Assembly (NCBI GenBank): GCA_019752335.1 | Contig: JAIEMJ010000036.1 | Location: 124,001-188,000, forward strand | From: Bryobacteraceae bacterium | GTDB taxonomy: Bacteria > Acidobacteriota > Terriglobia > Bryobacterales > Bryobacteraceae | Direction: 5' to 3' | DNA: 64,000 nt | In this document: positions 23,606 to 38,687 of the stretch, in pieces | How positions within the stretch are numbered: the stretch's first letter is position 1 | Layout of the letters: each line of letters starts with the position of its first letter | Translations under genes and position numbers: made by a program | Notes under the pieces: model-generated | The model's input: only the letters and a program-made list of their open reading frames with translations | Databases searched by the model: none | What the model was told of the DNA's origin: nothing

Positions 23606-24910
23606 ATGATTCGCCAAACCATCTTGCTCGCTTGCGTCACCGTGAGCGCCGCATTCTCTCAAGGACTCACCGCGACTTCGCCGTTAGTTCCCTTGCCGGC
23701 CGCCACCTTTGGCGGCAGTGGCATTCCCAATACCGCCGTGGCCGTCCAGACCATCTCCAATGGCGGCAATACCATCGTCCTCGGTCTGAACGCCACCCAG
23801 CGCTTCGCCGCGCAAACCGTCACCAACAACGGGGCCGGTACTTTTTATGGCGCCACGGGCGTTAGTCCAAATGCGCCGTCGACACCCGCTAACCCGCTCG
23901 CCAATTGGAATTTTAATTTTTACATTCAGGCCTTGGGCCCGGCCCCTACGAATGCGAATGTCCTCGGCCAGTACACCTTTGAATTGCTCTACGACATGGA
24001 CCCGGCCAACGCCACGCCGGCGGCATCGCTGGGCCGTGTGGTCATTCCTACGGGCGTCTCCAATCCCCTTGGCACTGTGCAGGACTCCACCAACCTCGGC
24101 TTCGACGCCTTCCGCGTCGCGATTCCCGGCGTTTTAACGCCGCCGCTGGGCTACGCCAACCCGGGCGGACAAGACTTCAATCCGAATATTCTTGGCCAGT
24201 ACACTTTCGCCCTGCGTGCCTTCGCGGGTGGCGTCCAGATCGGTGAGGTGGTGATTCACGTCAACGCGGTTCCCAACACCTCCACCCTTCCGAATCCCGA
24301 AATGAGTTACCAGGTGCGCTACCTCTCGAATCTCAACGTTGGTGAATCGTCCGTGAACATCACTAACACCGGCGCCCGGGGCGCCCAGTTGGCCGCGGGC
24401 ACGAACACCAGCACCACCGGCTCCATCTGCGTGAATGCCTATGTCTTCTCGCCCGACGAACAGATGGTCTCTTGCTGTTCCTGCCCGGTTACGCCCAACG
24501 GTTTGGTCTCGCTCTCAGCCACCAGTCTGGTGGGTAACAGCCTCACGCCTGCCGTTCCCACCTCGGTCATCGTCAAACTCGTCTCGACGATTCCGCTGCC
24601 GGGCGCCACGGGCTGCACCGGTTCCGCTTCCGCGATCCGTCCGCTCACCCCCATCCCGCAGCCGGGTCAACTGGCTACCGGCATGCTGGCCTGGGCAACT
24701 ACTTACCACAACGCCGGCCCTGGCCAACCTTTCGCTGCCACTTCCACCCCTTTCGCCCCCGCGACGCTCAGCGTGCTGCCCACGGGCGGCGATGACGTTA
24801 GTGAACTTGGCCGTCTCGCCACCCTTTGCACCTACATCAACGCCAATGGCAGTGGCTTCGGAATCTGCCGAGCCTGCCGCCTCGGCGGACTTGGCGCCGG
24901 CCGGCTGTAG
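23606..24910 (+). CDS. Secreted acidobacterial protein with CCSC and C-terminal Cys motif (paralog 1)
   Basis: Protein of 434 residues with a signal peptide (MIRQTILLACVTVSAAFSQG). The first half is Asn/Gly/Thr/Pro-rich beta sequence ('GLTATSPLVPLPAATFGG', 'GQYTFELLYDMDP'). The second half has 'SYQVRYLSNLNVGESSVNIT', the Cys block 'VSCCSCPVTPNGLVSLS' and the tail 'GSGFGICRACRLGGLG'. I associate this C-terminal arrangement with secreted proteins of Solibacter-like acidobacteria; no biochemical role is known to me. The paired Cys may form disulfides or an attachment signal. A near-perfect Shine-Dalgarno (AAGGAGGAG) precedes ATG 23606, implying high expression. A paralog follows downstream, and each copy ends in its own GC-rich terminator. 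Confidence 0.82.
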   Translation: MIRQTILLACVTVSAAFSQGLTATSPLVPLPAATFGGSGIPNTAVAVQTISNGGNTIVLGLNATQRFAAQTVTNNGAGTFYGATGVSPNAPSTPANPLANWNFNFYIQALGPAPTNANVLGQYTFELLYDMDPANATPAASLGRVVIPTGVSNPLGTVQDSTNLGFDAFRVAIPGVLTPPLGYANPGGQDFNPNILGQYTFALRAFAGGVQIGEVVIHVNAVPNTSTLPNPEMSYQVRYLSNLNVGESSVNITNTGARGAQLAAGTNTSTTGSICVNAYVFSPDEQMVSCCSCPVTPNGLVSLSATSLVGNSLTPAVPTSVIVKLVSTIPLPGATGCTGSASAIRPLTPIPQPGQLATGMLAWATTYHNAGPGQPFAATSTPFAPATLSVLPTGGDDVSELGRLATLCTYINANGSGFGICRACRLGGLGAGRL

Positions 24911-25288: not shown

Positions 25289-26576
25289 ATGATTCGTCAG
25301 ACCATCCTGCTGGCCTGTTTGAGTGCAGGTGTTGCATTCTCGCAAGGACTAACCGCCACCTCCCCGTTGGTGGGATTGCCCGCCGCAACTTTCGGTGGCG
25401 CTGGCATTCCGAATACCGCCGTGGCAGTGCAAACGGTAAACAACAATGGCAACACTATCACCCTCGGCCTGAACGCGTCAGAGCGCTTTGCCAATCCGGT
25501 AGTAACTAACAACAACGCCGGTACGTTCTTCGCCTCCGTCGGGCCCAGACGCGCCGCCGAACCTGGCGCGCTGGAACTTCAATTTCTTCATCAGCGCGAC
25601 GACGGGCGGTGGCGCTGACGCCACTGGCCAATACACCTTCGACATCCTCTACGACATGGATCCCGCCAGCTTTACCCCCGGTGCCTCGTTAGGCCGGATG
25701 GTACTTCCCAACGCCGGATTCCCCTCGGTGGGCGGAGTTGTGCAGAATTCTCAGAACCTCGGCTTCGCCTACTTGCGGACGGCCGTTCCGGGTATCATCA
25801 CCCCGCCCGCCGGTTTCGCCAACCCTGGCGGTGTGCCGTTTGACCCCACCACCCCCGGCCACTACACCTTCGCGCTGCGCGCTTTCGACCTGCTCGGCAA
25901 CCAAGTTGCCCAAGTGGTGATTCACGTCAGCACCCTCGCCGACCCCAATGCCGTCACGCCGCCCGCGGGCAGCTATCAGGTCCGCTACTTCTCCAACCTG
26001 AACGCCGGCGACTCGTTCATCAACATCACCAACACCGGCGAGCGGGGGGCTGGTCTGGCGGCGGGCACCACGGCCAACACCACCGGCGCCATCTGCGTCA
26101 ACGCCTACGTCTTCTCCCCCGACGAACAGATGGTCTCCTGCTGTTCCTGTCCGGTTACCCCGAATGGCTTGGTTTCGATGTCGGCTTCCAGCTTGGTGTC
26201 GAACACGCTCACCCCGGCGGTGCCCACTTCCATCGTCGTGAAATTGGTTTCCACCATCCCCACCGTCGCCAATGGCTGCACCAATTCCGCCGCGGCTATC
26301 CAACCGTTGGCTCCGATTCCCCAACCCAACGGCCTCACCGTCGGCATGCTCGCCTGGGCCACCACGCTCCACGCGCCTGCTGTCGCTGGCCTGCCCTTCG
26401 CCACCACGGAGACGCCCTTCGCTCCCGCCACCCTCAGCACCGTTGCGGGCGCGGGTGACAACATCGGCGAATTGAATCGCTTGGCCCGTCTCTGCAATTT
26501 CATCAACGCCAACGGCAGCGGCTTCGGTATCTGCCGCGCCTGCCGCCTCGGCGGACTCGGCGCCGGCCGTCTCTAA
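25289..26576 (+). pseudogene. Secreted acidobacterial protein paralog 2, single-base frameshift
   Basis: This copy is closely similar to paralog 1 throughout: MIRQTILLACLSAGVAFSQG signal, 'TATSPLVGLPAATFGGAG', then after the break 'RWNFNFFI', 'GQYTFDILYDMDP', 'VSCCSCPVTPNGLVSMS' and 'GSGFGICRACRLGGLG'. The frame from ATG 25289 runs into a TGA at 25616-25618. Removing one base from the GGGCCC run at 25541-25546 restores a continuous protein of about 428 residues that matches paralog 1. So either the gene has a one-base insertion or the sequence has an error there. Both halves keep coding-quality sequence, so any inactivation is recent. The Shine-Dalgarno AAGGAG is intact. Confidence 0.8.
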
Positions 26577-32012: not shown

Positions 32013-32050
32013 TGATTCAGATACCCGATACGTGTCGGATATCTGAATCA
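32013..32050. promoter_or_regulatory. 38-bp palindromic PadR operator
   Basis: Outer arms TGATTCAGATA (32013-32023) and TATCTGAATCA (32040-32050) are perfect 11-bp inverted repeats. Inside lies a second, almost perfect one, CCGA-TACGTG-TCGG (32025-32038). The spacing covers nearly four helical turns and could hold two PadR dimers. It sits between padR (start 31997) and the divergent gene (start 32084). Confidence 0.72.
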
Positions 32051-32083: not shown

Positions 32084-33256
32084 ATGGGTACAAAAACCAT
32101 CGCCATCGGCGCCGACTGGGCGCCGGACCGCGCCACCACCGCCGCCGTCCCCTGGACCCTCTGGTGCTGCGTCGCCGCTGTCACCTCCGTCATCCTCGGT
32201 GCCCATTGGGACATCGCCTGGCATCGCTCCATCGGCCGCGACGACTTCTGGACCCCGCCTCACGTCGCCATCTACTTCTGCGGCGTCCTCGCTGGACTCG
32301 CCTGCGCCTGGCTCATCCTCTCGACGACGTTTGACCGTTCCCGCCAAGCCAACACCGTTCGCATCTGGGGCCTGCACGCCCCGCTCGGCGCCTTCATCAT
32401 CTCCTGGGGTGGCGCGGCGATGCTGACCTCCGCCCCCTTTGACGACTGGTGGCACAACGCCTATGGGCTCGACACGAAGATCCTCAGCCCGCCGCACGTA
32501 TTGCTCATCCTCGGCGTGTTCGGCGTGATGATGGGCACCATGATGCTCATCCTCGGCCAGATGAACCGCGCCGAACGGCCCACGCAACGCAAGCTCTCGC
32601 TGCTCTTCCTCTACATCGGCGGCATGATTCTGGTGCTGCTTTCGATTCTCGTCATGGAGCTCACCTTCCGCGTGCAGATGCACAACGCCGGCTTCTATCG
32701 CGTGGTCGCCGTCACCATGATCCCCGTGCTGGTGGGCGTCGGCCAAGCCTCGCGCCAACGTTGGGGGGCCACCGGCGCCGCCGCCGTCTACATGCTGGTC
32801 ATCTGCGCCTTCCAGTGGATTCTGCCCCTCTTTCCCGCCTCGCCGAAGCTGGGCCCTGTCTACTATCCGGTGACGCACTTCGTCCCGCCGGGCTTCCCGC
32901 TCTTGCTCATCGTGCCCGCCCTGGCGATTGATCTGTTGCGCGCGCGCTTCTCTGCCTGGCCCCACTGGCGGCTAAGCCTGTTGCTGGGCACCGCCGCGCT
33001 GGCCGTCTTTATCGCGGTGCAATGGCCCTTCAGCAATTTCCTGATGACCGACTACGCGAAGAATTGGTTCTTCGGAACCCACTACTACGACTACGGCCAA
33101 GGCCCCCGCTCTTCCATGCGCCGCAACGTCTTTTTCCTCACCGACAAATCCACCGCCGACTTCTATACCCGCATGGCCATGGCCTTCGGCTTCGCCACCC
33201 TTACCGCCTGGTTCGGGCTCGGTTGGGGCGCCTGGATGCGCCGGATCGTTCGATGA
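32084..33256 (+). CDS. Polytopic membrane protein with duplicated WH...PPHV motif
   Basis: Integral membrane protein of 390 residues with about nine helices; I do not recognise the family. It carries an internal repeat: residues 43-61 and 120-139 both follow D-x2-W-H-x3-G-x-D-x(3-4)-[TS]-P-P-H-V, each at a membrane boundary. Four conserved His and the Asp residues could bind a metal or heme. The C-terminal part has another polar cluster, 'GTHYYDYGQG'. ATG 32084 is 5 nt from TAATGT; ATG 32075 is an alternative. The TGA overlaps the ATG of the next gene, whose product has His-x-His-Pro motifs, so the two act together. The PadR palindrome lies directly upstream. Confidence 0.72.
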   Translation: MGTKTIAIGADWAPDRATTAAVPWTLWCCVAAVTSVILGAHWDIAWHRSIGRDDFWTPPHVAIYFCGVLAGLACAWLILSTTFDRSRQANTVRIWGLHAPLGAFIISWGGAAMLTSAPFDDWWHNAYGLDTKILSPPHVLLILGVFGVMMGTMMLILGQMNRAERPTQRKLSLLFLYIGGMILVLLSILVMELTFRVQMHNAGFYRVVAVTMIPVLVGVGQASRQRWGATGAAAVYMLVICAFQWILPLFPASPKLGPVYYPVTHFVPPGFPLLLIVPALAIDLLRARFSAWPHWRLSLLLGTAALAVFIAVQWPFSNFLMTDYAKNWFFGTHYYDYGQGPRSSMRRNVFFLTDKSTADFYTRMAMAFGFATLTAWFGLGWGAWMRRIVR

Positions 33257-34674
33257 AACGCCTTCTCTGCATGCTCGCCGCGTTTCCCCTGCTCGCTCAC
33301 GTGGGCAGCCCGGACGTCTACCTCGAAGGCTCCGCCGGACCCTACCCCGTGCTCGTCACCGTGCGTCCGCCGGTGGTGATCCCCGGCGTCGCGGAAGTCG
33401 AAATCCGCGCCCTCGGCGACGGCGTCCAAAGCATCTCCATCACCCCCACCCCCATGACCGGGCCCGGAGCCCAATTCGCTCCTACCGCGGACTCCACCAA
33501 GCGCGACCCCGTGGATCCGCGCACCTACACCGGCTCCTTGTGGATGATGTCGAGCGGCTCATGGCAGGTCCGCGTGCGGGTAGAAGGCAAAGCCGGTCGC
33601 GGAGAGCTGCGCGTTCCCGTGCCTACGGTATCCGTGCGCACGCTGCCGCTGGGCGGCGCGCTCGGCGCAACGCTCTTCACCCTGATGGTGCTCCTCGTGC
33701 TCGGCCTGATCGCCATCGCCGGCGCTGCTGTCCGCGAAGCGCAGTTGCCCCCGGCCAGCGACGTGCCGCCTGTCGCCGTTCGCAAAGGCCGTTTGGCGAT
33801 GCTCGTCACTGCTGTGCTGCTCGGACTCTCGCTTTGGGGCGGCAACCAATGGTGGACCGCCGAAGCCAACGACTACGCGCGTTACCGCTACAAAGCCCTC
33901 AAACTCAATCCTAGCTTCCGCGACGGCCGTCTGCAGCTCAACCTCGAGCACACCGGCTGGTTTCAAAGCGCTACCTTTGATGACCTGGTGCCGGACCATG
34001 GCAAGATCATGCACCTCTTCGTCGTGCGCCTGCCCGATCTCGATCACGTTTGGCACCTGCATCCCGAAGCTACGGGTGACGGCGAGTTTACCCACGCGCT
34101 TCCCGCCATGCCCGCCGGACGCTATCAACTCTACGCCGACGTGGTCCACAAAAGCGGCTTCCCGGAGACCTTGGTCGCCGAGGTCACGCTGCCCGAAGTG
34201 AAGGGCTCGCCCGCCGCCGAGGACGACTCAAGTGGCGCCGTCGGACGGCCTCTGCGCGATGGCTACCGCATTCTTTTTGAGACGGCGAATCAGCCTATCA
34301 TCGCCAAAAAGGCCGCCAATCTGCGCTTCCGCTTCGTCGACGCCCAAGGCAATCCGCCCAAAGAGCAAGAGCTCTACCTCGGCATGCCCGGCCACGCCAT
34401 GGTGCTGCGCCGCGATCGCGGCGTCTTTGCCCACCTGCATCCCAGCGGCACGGTACCGATGGCCGCGCTCGAGTTGGCCGCCCAAGGGCAACTCGGCCAG
34501 GATCCCCATGCCGTCCATCGCCTGGCCCATTCGGCCACCGGCGCCATGCCCAATGTCGTCGCTTTTCCCTACGGCTTCCCCTCGGCGGGGAGCTACCGCC
34601 TCTTCGTCCAGATAAAACGCGCCGGCCACGTGGAAACCGCGGCTTTTGACTTGCAGGTGAACGAATCGTACTAG
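33253..34674 (+). CDS. Membrane-anchored protein with duplicated HxHP metal-binding-like domain
   Basis: Protein of 473 residues. Signal peptide (MKRLLCMLAAFPLLAHVG), then an Ig-like periplasmic domain to about 125, two membrane helices ('GATLFTLMVLLVLGLIAIAG' and 'LAMLVTAVLLGLSLWGG'), and a periplasmic C-terminal half containing two related beta units. Unit 1 has 'GKIMHLFVVRLPDLDHVW' and 'HLHPEATG'; unit 2 has 'MPGHAMVLRRDRGVFAHLHP'; each then ends in a 'G.Y.L' strand. The same double unit occurs in the heavy-metal-binding protein at 42453. Copper or another soft metal is the likely ligand (inference). It is translationally coupled to the WH/PPHV protein (ATGA overlap at 33253). Confidence 0.75.
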   Translation: MKRLLCMLAAFPLLAHVGSPDVYLEGSAGPYPVLVTVRPPVVIPGVAEVEIRALGDGVQSISITPTPMTGPGAQFAPTADSTKRDPVDPRTYTGSLWMMSSGSWQVRVRVEGKAGRGELRVPVPTVSVRTLPLGGALGATLFTLMVLLVLGLIAIAGAAVREAQLPPASDVPPVAVRKGRLAMLVTAVLLGLSLWGGNQWWTAEANDYARYRYKALKLNPSFRDGRLQLNLEHTGWFQSATFDDLVPDHGKIMHLFVVRLPDLDHVWHLHPEATGDGEFTHALPAMPAGRYQLYADVVHKSGFPETLVAEVTLPEVKGSPAAEDDSSGAVGRPLRDGYRILFETANQPIIAKKAANLRFRFVDAQGNPPKEQELYLGMPGHAMVLRRDRGVFAHLHPSGTVPMAALELAAQGQLGQDPHAVHRLAHSATGAMPNVVAFPYGFPSAGSYRLFVQIKRAGHVETAAFDLQVNESY

Positions 34675-34780: not shown

Positions 34781-35512
34781 ATGCTGCAAGCAATTAACCT
34801 AACCAAGGGATTCAACAATAAGATCGTCCTAAGTGGCTTGAACTTCGAAGTGCTGCCCGGCGAACTATTCTGCTTGCTGGGTGAAACCGGCGCCGGCAAG
34901 TCCGTCACCATGGCCTTGTTCCTGAATCTCCTGAAGTCCACCAGTGGCAATTGCCTGGTCGGCGGCTTCAATGTCTCCCTGCAACCCGCCAAGCCCAAAT
35001 CTTTGCTGGCCTACGTTCCTCCCGTCATGCCCCTCTATGAACAGCTAACCGGTATGGAGAACTTACAATATTTTTCGTCCATGGCCGGCTTTCTGGACTG
35101 GAAGCCAGGTGACGCACAGCGCCTGTTCAAGGATCTCGGCTTGGCGCAAGAACTCCTCGATCAGCCCGCCTCCACTTACTCCGTCGTTGTCCGGCAACGG
35201 ATTGGCTTGGCCATCGCCGTTTCGCGCGACGCCAAGGCGCTCTTGCTCGACGAGCCTACCCAGCATATGGATAGCGCCGCCGCTGAAGAGTATGTCACTT
35301 TGGTGAAGGCCTACGCGGAGGGTGACATTCTCGGCCAACCCGCCGCAGTGTTACTAGCCACCTCCTCCGCGGAAATCGCCGCCGAATTCAGCCACAAAGT
35401 GGGATTTCTCAAAAACGGAAAGTTAGTTGACATCCTCGAAGCTGATGATATCGGGCGCCGGGAGTATGTGGAACGCTGCCATGAGTTTTGTCCGGCCCCG
35501 GCGGTGGCGTAG
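34781..35512 (+). CDS. ABC transporter ATPase with degenerate catalytic motifs
   Basis: ABC ATPase-fold protein of 243 residues. Walker A (G34-E-T-G-A-G-K-S41) and Walker B with its Glu (LLLDEP, E158) are intact. Three other motifs are altered: the Q-loop reads YVPP with Pro81 where Gln is expected; the signature reads Y133-S-V-V-V-R-Q instead of YSGGMRQ, losing both glycines; and the switch reads A193-T-S-S with Ser195 in place of His. It probably binds ATP but should hydrolyse it poorly, if at all. ATG 34781 has AGAGGA 5 nt upstream. It heads a tight cluster with a MoaB-like gene and two ABC-2 permeases, which are its likely partners. Confidence 0.87.
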
Positions 35513-35516
35513 AGCT

Positions 35517-36029
35517 ATGTCAGTCAGCAACCAGGAACACAAGAATATCGCCGGCGCTCAGGGCCCGGTGCCCGTCGCCATTGTCACCGTCAGCGATACG
35601 CGGACGCCGGATACCGACGTCAACGCGCGATTCTTACGCGGCCGCATCGAAGCGGCCGGCCACGTCGTCGCCGCTTACCGGCTCATTCGTGATGAGCCCG
35701 CTCAAGTCGCGGCCGTGTTAGATGAATTGGCCGCCGGCGAAGCGCGCGTCATGCTCTGGAATGGTGGCACCGGTATCGCGCCGCGCGACACCACTTACGA
35801 CGTCTTGGCTCGGAAGTTAGAAAAGACTCTGCCTGGCTTCGGTGAGTTATTCCGCATGTTTAGCTATGAGCAGGTGGGTGCCTCCGCGATGTTGTCGCGC
35901 GCCGTGGGCGGCGTCTATCGCGGTAAAGTAGTACTCTCGACGCCTGGTTCTCCCGCCGCCGTGGAGTTAGCCTGGGAAAAGTTAATCGGGCCGGAGCTGG
36001 CGCATCTGGCCTGGGAAGTGGTGCGGTAA
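35517..36029 (+). CDS. moaB: MoaB/MogA-type molybdopterin adenylyltransferase-like protein
   Basis: Protein of 170 residues with the MoCF-biosynthesis fold: '[17 protein letters not shown]' at the N-terminal strand, the signature '[17 protein letters not shown]', and '[20 protein letters not shown]' with '[19 protein letters not shown]'. This is the pattern of enzymes that adenylylate molybdopterin before molybdenum insertion; some MoaB proteins lack that activity. No other cofactor gene is nearby. It lies 4 bp after the ABC ATPase gene and 4 bp before the first permease, an unusual place for it. ATG 35517 is chosen since earlier in-frame ATGs lie within the ATPase gene. Confidence 0.85.
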
Positions 36030-36033
36030 CCGA

Positions 36034-37461
36034 ATGATTCTCAGCATTGTCCTCAAGGAATGGAAAGAGTTCTGGCGCGATCGTGGCTTGCGCCTCATCG
36101 TGCTCGGTTACTTAGCCGTCTACGCCGTCTCGCTGCTCGTTTCCGCCGTCCAGTTTCTGCGCTACGAGCATGACCGTGTGGTGGCCGAGAAAAGCGCGCG
36201 CGAGTCCTGGATCAACCAGGGCGAGAAGAATCCCCACGCGGCTACTTACTTTGGTCTCGTTACTTTCCCCAAGCGCTCGGCCCTTTCGATTTTGGAGCCG
36301 GGCGCGCTGCCTTATTTGGGTGTCGCGGCGTATCTGCGCACCGGGGAGCGCACCGATTTTGTTGACTTACCGGCGCGGGACCGCAGCCCACTCTTGTCCT
36401 TAGTCTCGCTGTCTCCCGCCGTTTGTTGGCAGTTAGTCTTTCCCTTCCTGATTGTTCTGCTCACTTACTCCACCTTGGCGCGGGACCGGGAGACTGGCAT
36501 GGAGCGCTATCTATTGGCCGTCGGCTCGAACCGGGCGACGCTGTTTTTCGGGAAGACGCTCGGCGCCGGCCTGGTCCTGCTCGTGATCTATCTCGTTACC
36601 TACGGCCTGGGTGGCGTGGTCGCCTCGGTTGCCGGTGGCTTCGCCGAAGAAGATATGAGTGCTTGGTTGTTGATCGGCATGTTCTACCTGCTCTTCAGCG
36701 CCGCTGTCTTTTTCCTCTCGCTTGCCATCTCGGGCCTGGCTTCCACTTCTCGCCAGGCACTGGTGGGCGGCATGGTGATGTGGCTCCTGGTAGCCGTGGT
36801 CCTGCCGCGCTTCGCCGCGGACTACGGGCGTAATTCCGTGGCGTCGCCCTCTGCGTTGGAACTCAGCCGCATCACCGAACTCGATATGGAGAAAGGCTTC
36901 GGTGACCGGCCGCCCCGCGAAGCCCGCGCCGAAGAGACCCTCAATATGCTCTTCCGCGAACTCAAGGTCGGCCGCCGCGAGGATATCACGATGAATCTGC
37001 CGGGCTTCGAATTCATCTCCGAGGCCGAAGTGGAAGCGGCTTCGCGCCGTGGACGCCTTGCCCAAACCCGCCAGATCCTTGCCGCGCAGACTGCTTCCAT
37101 GGAACGGGGGGCAGCCTTCTCGCCTACCACCGCCGTTCAACTGCTGGGCTCTACCTTAGCGGGCACGGCTGCCGAGCAGCGCTATCCCGTTACCGACTCC
37201 GCTGAACTCTACGCTCATCGCGTACGCCGCATTCTGAATCGCGAACTGGCCGCCAAGGGCAAGGAACTGGGCGGCGCCTTCACCAGCAATCGCTCTTTCT
37301 GGAACCAGATCGATACTTTCGATCCGGACTTACCCGAGCAGATCGAAGCCGCCACGGCCCGCACCCGCTCGATTGTCACTTTGCTAGTCTGGTTTATCCT
37401 CGCGCTGCTCGCCGCCGCCACCTCTGGCCTCGTCGTGCCACAGATGGGAGAGCGCTCATGA
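36034..37461 (+). CDS. ABC-2 type permease with large extracytoplasmic insert (DUF3526-like)
   Basis: Membrane protein of 475 residues. The N-terminus 'VLKEWKEFWRDRGLRLIVLG' is typical of ABC-2 permeases. One helix is followed by a periplasmic loop, then four or five helices between about 125 and 270 ('CWQLVFPFLIVLLTYSTLARDRETGMERYLL' region with the conserved RDRETG). A second large loop rich in Arg/Glu runs to about 445, and a last helix ends at 'SGLVVPQMG'. This resembles the DUF3526 permease pairs found beside NosY/GldF-type systems. It ends in an ATGA overlap with the next permease. The substrate is unknown; the partner ATPase is the degenerate one upstream. Confidence 0.8.
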   Translation: MILSIVLKEWKEFWRDRGLRLIVLGYLAVYAVSLLVSAVQFLRYEHDRVVAEKSARESWINQGEKNPHAATYFGLVTFPKRSALSILEPGALPYLGVAAYLRTGERTDFVDLPARDRSPLLSLVSLSPAVCWQLVFPFLIVLLTYSTLARDRETGMERYLLAVGSNRATLFFGKTLGAGLVLLVIYLVTYGLGGVVASVAGGFAEEDMSAWLLIGMFYLLFSAAVFFLSLAISGLASTSRQALVGGMVMWLLVAVVLPRFAADYGRNSVASPSALELSRITELDMEKGFGDRPPREARAEETLNMLFRELKVGRREDITMNLPGFEFISEAEVEAASRRGRLAQTRQILAAQTASMERGAAFSPTTAVQLLGSTLAGTAAEQRYPVTDSAELYAHRVRRILNRELAAKGKELGGAFTSNRSFWNQIDTFDPDLPEQIEAATARTRSIVTLLVWFILALLAAATSGLVVPQMGERS

Positions 37462-38687
37462 ACCGCTCTTTGCTCGCCGTCGCCGCCGGCTTCCTCGCCT
37501 TGGGCTTAGCCGCCGGTTGGAGCGGACGCCACACGCGCGAGACCCTCCAACAGATTGAAGTCCACGTCGCCCAGGCGAATCAGCAGCGCCTGGAAATTGG
37601 CAAATTGAACGCCGGCTTTACCTCCACCGAAGGCCGTCCCCGCGCTGAGGACTCCGTGGTCGCCTCCGCTGACGGCGTCGCGCCCTGGATGGTCTCCGGC
37701 ACCCCATCGCTGGCCGGCGCCGCCATCGGCCAAGCCGCTTTCCGCCGTGTCGTTTGGCGTCCCACCTCCTGGGGCGCCGAAGCCGGACTCGAGATCTTCG
37801 ACAACGCCCAAACCATGGCTGCCGGTCACTTCGATCTCGCCCTCGTGATGGTCTTCGGCCTCCCGCTGGTCATCCTCCTCGCGCCCCGGCACGATGCCGT
37901 GCTCCTGGTGCTCGGCCCGGCCGTCAGCCTGGCTGGCATCTTGCTTACCGGTGCTCCGCTCGACCGTCCGGATACCTGGCTTCGCACTGCCGCCTGGCTC
38001 GCGCTCACCGGCCTTTACGGCGCCTGCTGGTGGATGGTGCGCCGTCGCGAGCCCGCCTTCTGGCAGGCCGCCGTCGTCTACGTGACGCTGGTCGTGCTGT
38101 TGCCCGGCCTCGCCTCCTTGCTGGCTGAGTTAGTTCTCCCGCCCCCGTCTCGCCTGGAGATCGCCGCACAGAAGCAAGTGGCCTTGCGGCCCGTGATGGC
38201 GAAAACCAGCCGTGAACTGGCGCCCTTCTACGAGACCCACCCCGAATTCGCCGAAGGCGGCCGTACCCCCGCCGACTATGACCGCATTCGCCTGGCCGCG
38301 GAAGCCGAGCGTCAAGCCGCCCTCGCCTCCGTCACCCAGCCCGCCGCCGGGCGCGTCGCCTTCCATCGCATCGCCGCCCAGCTTCTGGGCATGTCTTCCC
38401 CGGCTGCCATCTTCCACCTCGCGCTCCTGGAGACGGCCGGCACCGGCGTCAGCCGGCAGGACTCCTTCGAGCAAAGCGCCCTCGACTTTGGCCGCAAATG
38501 GTCCGCCGAACTGAAAGCCCGCATCGGCCGCGGCCACCCCATGCGACCTGCTGACCTGGATTCACTGCCCGTCTTTCAGTACCAGGAGCAGCCCGTTATG
38601 GACTGGCTAATCTCCTTCGGCGTTGGCGCCGTCAGCCTGATTGCCTGGCTGGGCGTCGTCCAGCTCTTCCGCAAGAAAGCCGCTTAA
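37458..38687 (+). CDS. Second ABC-2-like permease of the operon (DUF3526-like)
   Basis: Protein of 409 residues with an N-terminal helix (LLAVAAGFLALGLAAGWSG), a coiled stretch ('RETLQQIEVHVAQANQQRLE'), a periplasmic domain, then four or five helices (about 140-235). A helical loop of about 130 residues ('RELAPFYETHPEFAEG') precedes a C-terminal helix ('FGVGAVSLIAWLGVVQLF'). The layout parallels the preceding permease, and the two probably form a heterodimer. It lacks the RDRETG motif of its partner. It ends exactly one base before the GTG start of the AtpZ-like gene, so the transporter and ATP synthase genes appear to be one transcription unit. Confidence 0.75.
   Translation: MNRSLLAVAAGFLALGLAAGWSGRHTRETLQQIEVHVAQANQQRLEIGKLNAGFTSTEGRPRAEDSVVASADGVAPWMVSGTPSLAGAAIGQAAFRRVVWRPTSWGAEAGLEIFDNAQTMAAGHFDLALVMVFGLPLVILLAPRHDAVLLVLGPAVSLAGILLTGAPLDRPDTWLRTAAWLALTGLYGACWWMVRRREPAFWQAAVVYVTLVVLLPGLASLLAELVLPPPSRLEIAAQKQVALRPVMAKTSRELAPFYETHPEFAEGGRTPADYDRIRLAAEAERQAALASVTQPAAGRVAFHRIAAQLLGMSSPAAIFHLALLETAGTGVSRQDSFEQSALDFGRKWSAELKARIGRGHPMRPADLDSLPVFQYQEQPVMDWLISFGVGAVSLIAWLGVVQLFRKKAA

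Follow-up and report, generated by a model that had tools for sequence, protein, structure and literature searches.

Particulate methane monooxygenase (pMMO) and ammonia monooxygenase (AMO) are copper membrane monooxygenases (CuMMOs), whose genes usually occur as a set of three, xmoCAB (PMC6215863; this and the other papers cited here by PMC identifier are represented by excerpts). In pMMO, the CuC site is formed by Asp156, His160 and His173, while the CuD site, which is held to be the site of methane hydroxylation, is formed by Asn227, His231 and His245 (PMC12576850, PMC11194816). PmoC Arg165 bonds a water between the copper sites (PMC12576850), and phenylalanines 177, 240 and 248 belong to CuD, whose neutral ligands point to Cu(I); a carboxylate ligand affects the oxidation state strongly (PMC11194816). 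At the CuB site, His33 binds copper also via its terminal amine (PMC12576850). pMMO is treated solely as a cuproenzyme in the excerpts of one paper (PMC3817396), and the metal content and active-site position of CuMMOs are called 'highly controversial' in another (PMC12576850). Here, these enzymes are compared with a pair of genes, termed P1 and P2, from a Bryobacteraceae bacterium (Acidobacteriota). The pair lies in a window of 64,000 nucleotides (assembly GCA_019752335.1, contig JAIEMJ010000036.1, positions 124,001 to 188,000), to which all coordinates below refer. The P1 gene (32084..33256) encodes a membrane protein of 390 amino acids (aa), in which a PmoC-like part is followed by a PmoA-like part on a single chain, and the P2 gene (33253..34674) encodes a membrane-anchored partner of 473 aa; both genes, and hence all their parts, are on the forward strand. 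The P1/P2 family is very probably sister to the CuMMOs.

P1 compared with PmoC and PmoA

Scans of the single proteins against Pfam, NCBIfam and PHROGs found no family that covers P1 or P2, and a FeoB_C hit on P1 (E 0.045) was dismissed as a chance hydrophobic match. Since phmmer searches of the PDB with the single P1 or P2 sequence returned no match, profiles were needed, and 77 of 80 relatives were aligned with the window's P1 (78 sequences). In a hmmsearch of the PDB with this profile, the sole sequence at E<1 was the AmoC chain 9cl6_C (E 0.0016; next at E 3), with the P1 segment DIAWHRSIGRDDFWTPPHV aligned onto DASWHQVIIRDTSFTPSHV. Comparison by hhalign with seven canonical PmoC/AmoC sequences, six from plasmid records and one from an Acidobacteriota contig, gave E 5.3e-5, with the two motifs discussed below in register and collinear over 88 columns; the best of 60 column shuffles reached 0.037 and the reversed profile 0.18. 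When a PmoC/AmoC hidden Markov model (HMM) was run over the 5790 open reading frames (ORFs) of 81 loci, 90 matches at E<=10 were obtained (best 1.2e-5), comprising 78 P1, three P2 frames and nine others, and the top 25 were all P1. The Pfam family AmoC (PF04896) matched 11 of the 78 P1 sequences weakly at E<=1 (best 0.014) and passed its curated cut-off in 0 of 16 carrier genomes. The PmoC-like part spans residues 12-167 (32117..32584), and in VIA-align superpositions the PmoC chains 7s4m_C (model residues 14-167 on chain residues 94-246) and 7yzy_C (12-166 on 121-275) gave Z scores of 5.2 and 5.0, which are low on their own. A preliminary description of the locus, made without database searches, had left P1 outside any known family and had proposed HMM-HMM comparison and structure prediction as checks. 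The comparison overturns that placement: judged by sequence, the first part of P1 is remotely related to PmoC/AmoC, and it is fused to a PmoA-like part.

The preliminary description had also noticed an internally duplicated WH/PPHV motif, and both copies are present in the PmoC-like part. Motif 1 (residues 43-61, 32210..32266) reads D43-IA-W46-H47-RSI-G51-R-D53-DFW-TPPHV61, and motif 2 (residues 120-139, 32441..32500) reads D120-DW-W123-H124-NAY-G128-L-D130-TKIL-SPPHV139. The spacing D43-x3-H47-x12-H60 equals that of the CuC ligands, and this Asp-x3-His-x12-His triad of pMMO/AMO is found in all 78 P1 sequences; in D120-x3-H124-x13-H138, the distances are those between the CuD ligands, but Asp stands where CuD has Asn. 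The double pattern D-x3-H-x12-H followed by [DN]-x3-H-x13-H is carried by 78/78 P1, 7/7 PmoC/AmoC and 5/5 actinobacterial relatives (see below), and by just one of the 1920 remaining ORFs with a length of 150 aa or more. Invariant throughout the alignment are D43, W46, H47, G51, R52, D53 and H60 around motif 1, with R52 occupying the place of PmoC Arg165, and D120, D121, W123, H124, G128, D130, S135, P136, P137 and H138 around motif 2. Variation is seen at T57 (58/78), P58 (68/78) and P59 (29/78), and V61 and V139 likewise are not invariant. The His and Asp residues of the motifs, whose poor conservation among orthologs had been named beforehand as a finding that would refute a metal-handling module, are thus kept in 78 of 78. 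Position and spacing relative to the PmoC copper sites, together with this invariance, support the earlier suggestion of paired metal ligands, and P1 looks to have retained almost every position that binds copper in the membrane part of these enzymes. Further features shared with PmoC/AmoC, besides the ligand sets in order, are W and RD at site 1, an acid and P-x-H at site 2 and the arrangement of the core helices, whereas P1 differs in the exchange of the CuD Asn for Asp, in other residues at the Phe positions, in its visible internal repeat, in the attached PmoA-like part and in scoring below the Pfam cut-off in the tested genomes.

With the actinobacterial relatives included, the motif-1 and motif-2 blocks match each other (hhalign E 1.3e-10; best of 200 column-shuffled controls 1.5e-4); for the close orthologs alone, the match (E 5.8e-4) is not clear of its controls, with one of 100 shuffles lower. 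The repeat within P1 is, by these profile comparisons, more than chance. The two PmoC blocks compared with each other gave no repeat (E 0.17). The motif-1 block alone matches PmoC (E 7.5e-8; best of 200 shuffles 0.0018), and the motif-2 block alone does not match the second PmoC block (E 0.37), so that the assignment of site 2 in P1 rests on collinearity, spacing and fold. If P1 and PmoC share ancestry, the internal repeat of P1 suggests that a single ancestral half-site was duplicated to give the CuC and CuD sites.

For the second part of P1 (residues 163-390, 32570..33253), the evidence comes from structure. The AlphaFold2 model of P1 is confident (pLDDT 93.4, pTM 0.91), and its top 13 VIA-align entries, with Z from 14.1 to 9.3, are all PmoA/AmoA chains, the next unrelated entry being at 8.0; Z values up to about 14 are possible for helical models by common arrangement. 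Some of the subunit-A alignments span P1 from residue 10-16 to 390, and within residues 163-390, 7s4h_B (Z 14.0, root-mean-square deviation 4.0, 199 residues) and 3rfr_B (Z 14.0) were aligned. H200 and D283 are invariant in this part and E192 is kept in 72/78. The predicted fold is that of the A subunit, and the block around D283 was aligned to PmoA/AmoA (PF02461) by hhalign; unlike PmoA/AmoA, however, residues 163-390 carry an invariant His200, have no reliable sequence similarity to the family, and the GDW.FW.DWKDR block was not seen in them. A PmoA HMM run over the ORFs of the loci gave 13 matches, nine of them P1 and only one below E 0.4. In overall appearance, P1 looks like a one-piece PmoC-PmoA. 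This view is persuasive because each part of the chain, the first by sequence and the second by fold, leads to a different subunit of one complex, with the order C-A-B followed.

P2 compared with PmoB, CrdA and CopC

The stop codon of P1 and the start codon of P2 share an ATGA at 33253-33256, as given in the preliminary description. The AlphaFold2 model of P2 is likewise confident (pLDDT 93.0, pTM 0.89) and lays the protein out as a signal peptide, a beta domain, two long helices and two further beta domains. The candidate signal peptide comprises residues 1-15 (33253..33297) and ends in Ala. The following residue, His16, is shared by all 65 aligned P2 members and is preceded by Ala in 57, Gly in five and Ser in three, a pattern that fits its release by signal peptidase; it would be the N-terminal residue of the mature N-terminal beta domain (33298..33642), which also contains an invariant W97-x-M99. 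The helices (residues 135-162 and 173-211, 33655..33885) are taken as transmembrane. In the first C-terminal beta domain (33901..34200), D248, H249, H254, H268, H270 and P271 are conserved in 65/65; in the second (34240..34671), M378 and H381 are conserved in 65/65, and H394, H396 and P397 in 64/65, with one gap. The two H-x-H-P beta units reported earlier for a membrane-anchored P2 are therefore present, as HLHP at residues 268-271 and 394-397, and the C-terminal domains repeat each other (hhalign E 5.6e-6; best of 150 shuffles 0.006).

A full PmoB has a periplasmic beta domain, two helices and a C-terminal beta part. Like PmoB/AmoB (PF04744), P2 has a signal peptide followed by Ala-His, a beta domain, two helices and a C-terminal beta part, and its gene is placed after the C and A parts. 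Two genes are thus found here instead of the three of xmoCAB, with the order of C part, A part and B-like protein kept. P2 differs from PmoB/AmoB in that there is no sequence match, in that HxHP is found in the C-terminal part and not in the N-domain, and in having two C-terminal domains. The case for P2 as a putative PmoB counterpart therefore consists of its layout, its gene position and its N-terminal His. PmoB did not appear among the fold matches listed for P2; beta-sandwich proteins filled that list, and hence this absence proves nothing.

The N-domain of P2 resembles the fold of the copper proteins CrdA (9ll4_A, Z 10.7) and CopC (5icu, Z 8.5), although unrelated beta sandwiches also reach 9. 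CrdA of Helicobacter pylori was also the sole sequence match of the P2 profile in the PDB (9ll2_A, E 0.022, hmmsearch). Among Pfam families, YtkA was the commonest weak match (12 of 65 members at E<=1), and CopC matched one of the 65 (E 0.16). In contrast to CrdA and CopC, which are small and soluble and have a Met-rich Cu(I) site, a His Cu(II) site or both, P2 is a membrane protein of 473 aa with two long helices, and its N-terminal His and W-x-M differ from the ligand sets given in the excerpts of PMC9182242.

Relatives and proposed function

A scan of a genome collection returned 311 stretches that encode a P1 relative, of which the best 80 were used. By record title, these 80 come from Acidobacteriota, Gemmatimonadota, Verrucomicrobiota and Bacteroidota; one relative titled Myxococcales and one titled Acidimicrobiia may be mis-titled bins. 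Named carrier strains include Dyadobacter, Runella and Mangrovivirga, which live heterotrophically. A P1 match was found in 31/81 genomes of the window's family, sometimes in two copies, and in 16/297 genomes of its phylum, a few of these being fragments, while one scan of viral contigs found no P1 relative. P2 adjoins P1 in 72 of the 80 relatives, and the next recurring gene family is found in 10 of the 80 loci. Twenty neighbours scanned singly belong to mixed, mostly unrelated families. The window's clade has 123 eligible nearest neighbours, of which 110 were assessed: each Pfam family occurs at most three times among them, and the 25 most frequent of the 106 neighbour families include none related to copper. 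AMO and Monooxygenase_B did not score over their cut-offs in the four carrier genomes searched.

Several single cases were observed among these records. In genomes with two copies of P1, one copy may be of an orphan type that lacks P2. P1 is in two pieces in G374:C421, on opposite strands 7 kb apart, and in G346:C737, where the pieces adjoin in another frame, through breakage or assembly. A canonical AmoC over the Pfam cut-off, open at the end of the examined stretch, lies on a contig assigned to an Acidobacteriota genome (L082, G046:C71); no AMO or Monooxygenase_B scored over the cut-off in that genome, so a binning error is possible. The control genome of Haloferax volcanii gave a weak AmoC match below the cut-off, which is perhaps an archaeal P1 relative.

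More distant relatives were found by tblastn of P1 against plasmids, which returned eight records, all from actinobacterial genera. Six of these loci were read (L100-L105), five of them intact (L101-L105) and one, L100, with a broken frame. The intact loci are single genes of 475-496 aa with both Asp-His-His sets and E192 invariant, and the fused domain starts with Ala-His-Asp-Pro-Gly-Gln-Gly and matches the N-domain of P2 (E 6.1e-4; best of 150 shuffles 0.0075). The Asp-His-His sets, E192 and the Ala-His beta domain are thus shared with P1-P2, whereas the single gene, the late position of the beta domain in the chain, the lack of HxHP and, in three of the five, metal-gene surroundings are not. 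In all five, a hydrophobic stretch ending in Ala-x-Ala precedes the His of the domain, which raises the question of an internal cleavage freeing an N-terminal His. Surrounding genes include a multicopper oxidase and a cupredoxin at L101, heavy-metal P-type ATPases, a metal-sensitive regulator and a four-helix copper-binding protein at L103, and a cupredoxin and a heavy-metal ATPase at L105; L102 and L104 have the less specific BlaI/MecI/CopY regulators, and no such copper or metal genes surround L100. In four further 40-kb stretches, taken from other regions of four of the plasmids, no multicopper oxidase, cupredoxin or heavy-metal ATPase is listed; one has arsenic genes, one a DUF1775 protein and one an Nramp metal transporter. 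The plasmid of Mycolicibacterium chubuense (NC_018022.1) carries both a canonical three-gene CuMMO (L094) and a single-gene P1 relative (L104).

P1/P2 is not counted among the CuMMOs, because it lacks the Asn of CuD, the triad of CuB, an arrangement in three genes and a score over the Pfam cut-off. The sequences and models show that the ligand sets are conserved, that P1 is related in sequence and fold to PmoC and PmoA, and that P2 accompanies P1 in 72 of the 80 relatives; beyond this, we infer that P1 and P2 would form a copper membrane complex, a remote and rearranged sister of pMMO/AMO in which P1 would supply the PmoC core and a PmoA-like part in one chain and P2 would stand in the place of PmoB. 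P2 would catch periplasmic copper through its mature N-terminal His, Trp97, Met99 and the two HxHP domains, and this copper would then fill one or both Asp-His-His sites in the membrane part of P1. Reduced copper at P1 would activate O2 and thereby oxidize a small hydrophobic or toxic substrate. That the pair is a copper-containing, O2-using membrane enzyme with a substrate other than those established is proposed tentatively, as the likeliest of the readings, although it is slightly less probable than not.

Several results weigh against this enzyme reading. The CuD Asn is replaced by Asp in 78/78 P1 sequences, so that the Asn-His-His triad of pMMO/AMO is absent; site 2 is then expected to carry a charge, as CuC does, which disfavours simple methane chemistry. 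The positions of the CuD residues Phe177, Phe240 and Phe248, aligned by position, hold Y64 (64/78), I133 (72/78) and L141 (78/78). The kinship of P1 with PmoA rests on the fold of the model, for which high Z values can reflect the common helical arrangement mentioned above; by hhalign it is borderline (E 0.024; best of 60 shuffles 0.025), and the Foldseek E of the whole P1 chain for PmoA is 0.18. No link between P2 and PmoB was found by hhalign or HMM, and the HxH of CuB is not found in the N-domain of P2, although its N-terminal His is present in 65/65; some recognized pMMOs likewise do without CuB (PMC6215863, PMC12576850). Eight of the 80 relatives (L007, L036, L039-L044) have P1 with all ligands kept and no P2 in the examined stretch, either by HMM or by tblastn, where nothing scored better than E 0.2. 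Finally, no oxidation-pathway family recurs among the neighbour families listed, and three of the six actinobacterial plasmid loci lie among copper or heavy-metal genes.

This last association leads to a copper-homeostasis complex that uses the pMMO fold without oxygenase activity, in which P2 would capture periplasmic copper and P1 would store, sense, oxidize or move it at its two Asp-His-His sites; copper membrane monooxygenases may even have grown out of such proteins. Two more of the plasmid loci stand beside regulators of the BlaI/MecI/CopY type and the sixth beside nothing of the kind, the stretches read elsewhere on the plasmids list none of the copper-gene group, CrdA and CopC are the nearest folds to the N-domain of P2, and the Asp in site 2 makes both P1 sites CuC-like. 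On the other hand, simple storage would need neither the PmoA-like part nor P2, plasmids are biased towards metal genes and the loci read are all plasmid-borne, and the neighbours in the window's clade show no copper family within the scope given above. Copper handling of this kind is nearly as likely as the enzyme reading. The metal-handling module of the preliminary description is possible. The co-occurrence with copper genes that it had suggested looking for is seen, for copper or heavy-metal genes, at three of the six actinobacterial loci, but not among the 25 commonest neighbour families of the window's clade, and the fold is that of an enzyme.

Fold and ligand spacing would also fit a true copper membrane monooxygenase acting on the known substrates methane, ammonia or short alkanes. 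This is improbable, given the change of the CuD Asn to Asp and the other residues at the Phe positions, the 0/16 carrier genomes with AmoC over the curated cut-off, the finding that methanol dehydrogenase or the like is not recurrent among the neighbour families listed, and the presence of the named Dyadobacter, Runella and Mangrovivirga strains, heterotrophs, among the carriers. A heme protein or a membrane protein of another metal (Zn, Fe), unrelated to CuMMOs and convergently similar to PmoC, is conceivable insofar as short ligand motifs can converge and the whole-chain Foldseek E is weak; since the likeness extends beyond the ligands to W46, R52-D53, the acid at 130 and P136, runs collinearly through 88 columns and comes with a PmoA-like part attached, such convergence is highly improbable.

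A search of open-licence PMC papers, with subscription papers and bioRxiv outside its range, found no description of the P1/P2 family. In PMC9038741, PMC12533140 and PMC6215863, the terms looked up for a fused subunit, for Acidobacteria/Acidobacteriota, for Bacteroidetes/Bacteroidota and, in some of them, for Gemmatimonadetes did not occur. The hosts of P1/P2 are bacteria without known methane or ammonia oxidation. The pair may represent a widespread, unrecognized family of copper membrane enzymes that stands alongside the methane and ammonia monooxygenases as a whole, has C and A in one chain and retains the duplication from which CuC and CuD were founded and whose actinobacterial members suggest an origin of methane and ammonia oxidases in copper defence; as a whole, this larger picture is possible but still somewhat more doubtful than secure. 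The origin of these monooxygenases and the role of each copper site are old questions. A distant family in which both intramembrane sites persist and C and A share one chain, and which occurs in named strains of Dyadobacter and Runella, provides a further system for testing them. If the pair oxidizes anything, an unsuspected oxidation would be spread through soil and water bacteria.

Other features of the window

Between P1 and a divergent PadR gene lies a palindrome (32013..32050) with 19-nucleotide arms that are 89% complementary. The strong, PadR-type palindrome of the preliminary description is thus real, whereas its link to PadR did not extend to the relatives: a PadR homolog (phmmer E<=1e-8, ORFs of at least 60 aa) was found in the examined stretches of 0/80. 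Regulation of P1-P2 by PadR was rejected as a general feature on this count, and the palindrome probably serves the divergent PadR and ABC-permease genes. Downstream of P2, at 34784-38687, an ABC ATPase, a molybdopterin-domain protein and two DUF3526 proteins are encoded in series, and one of the two DUF3526 proteins also matches an ABC-2 permease. Elsewhere in the window, the neighbouring ORFs 23606-24910 and 25656-26576 resemble each other over much of their length and contain one and the same Cys-rich segment, which marks a local duplication.

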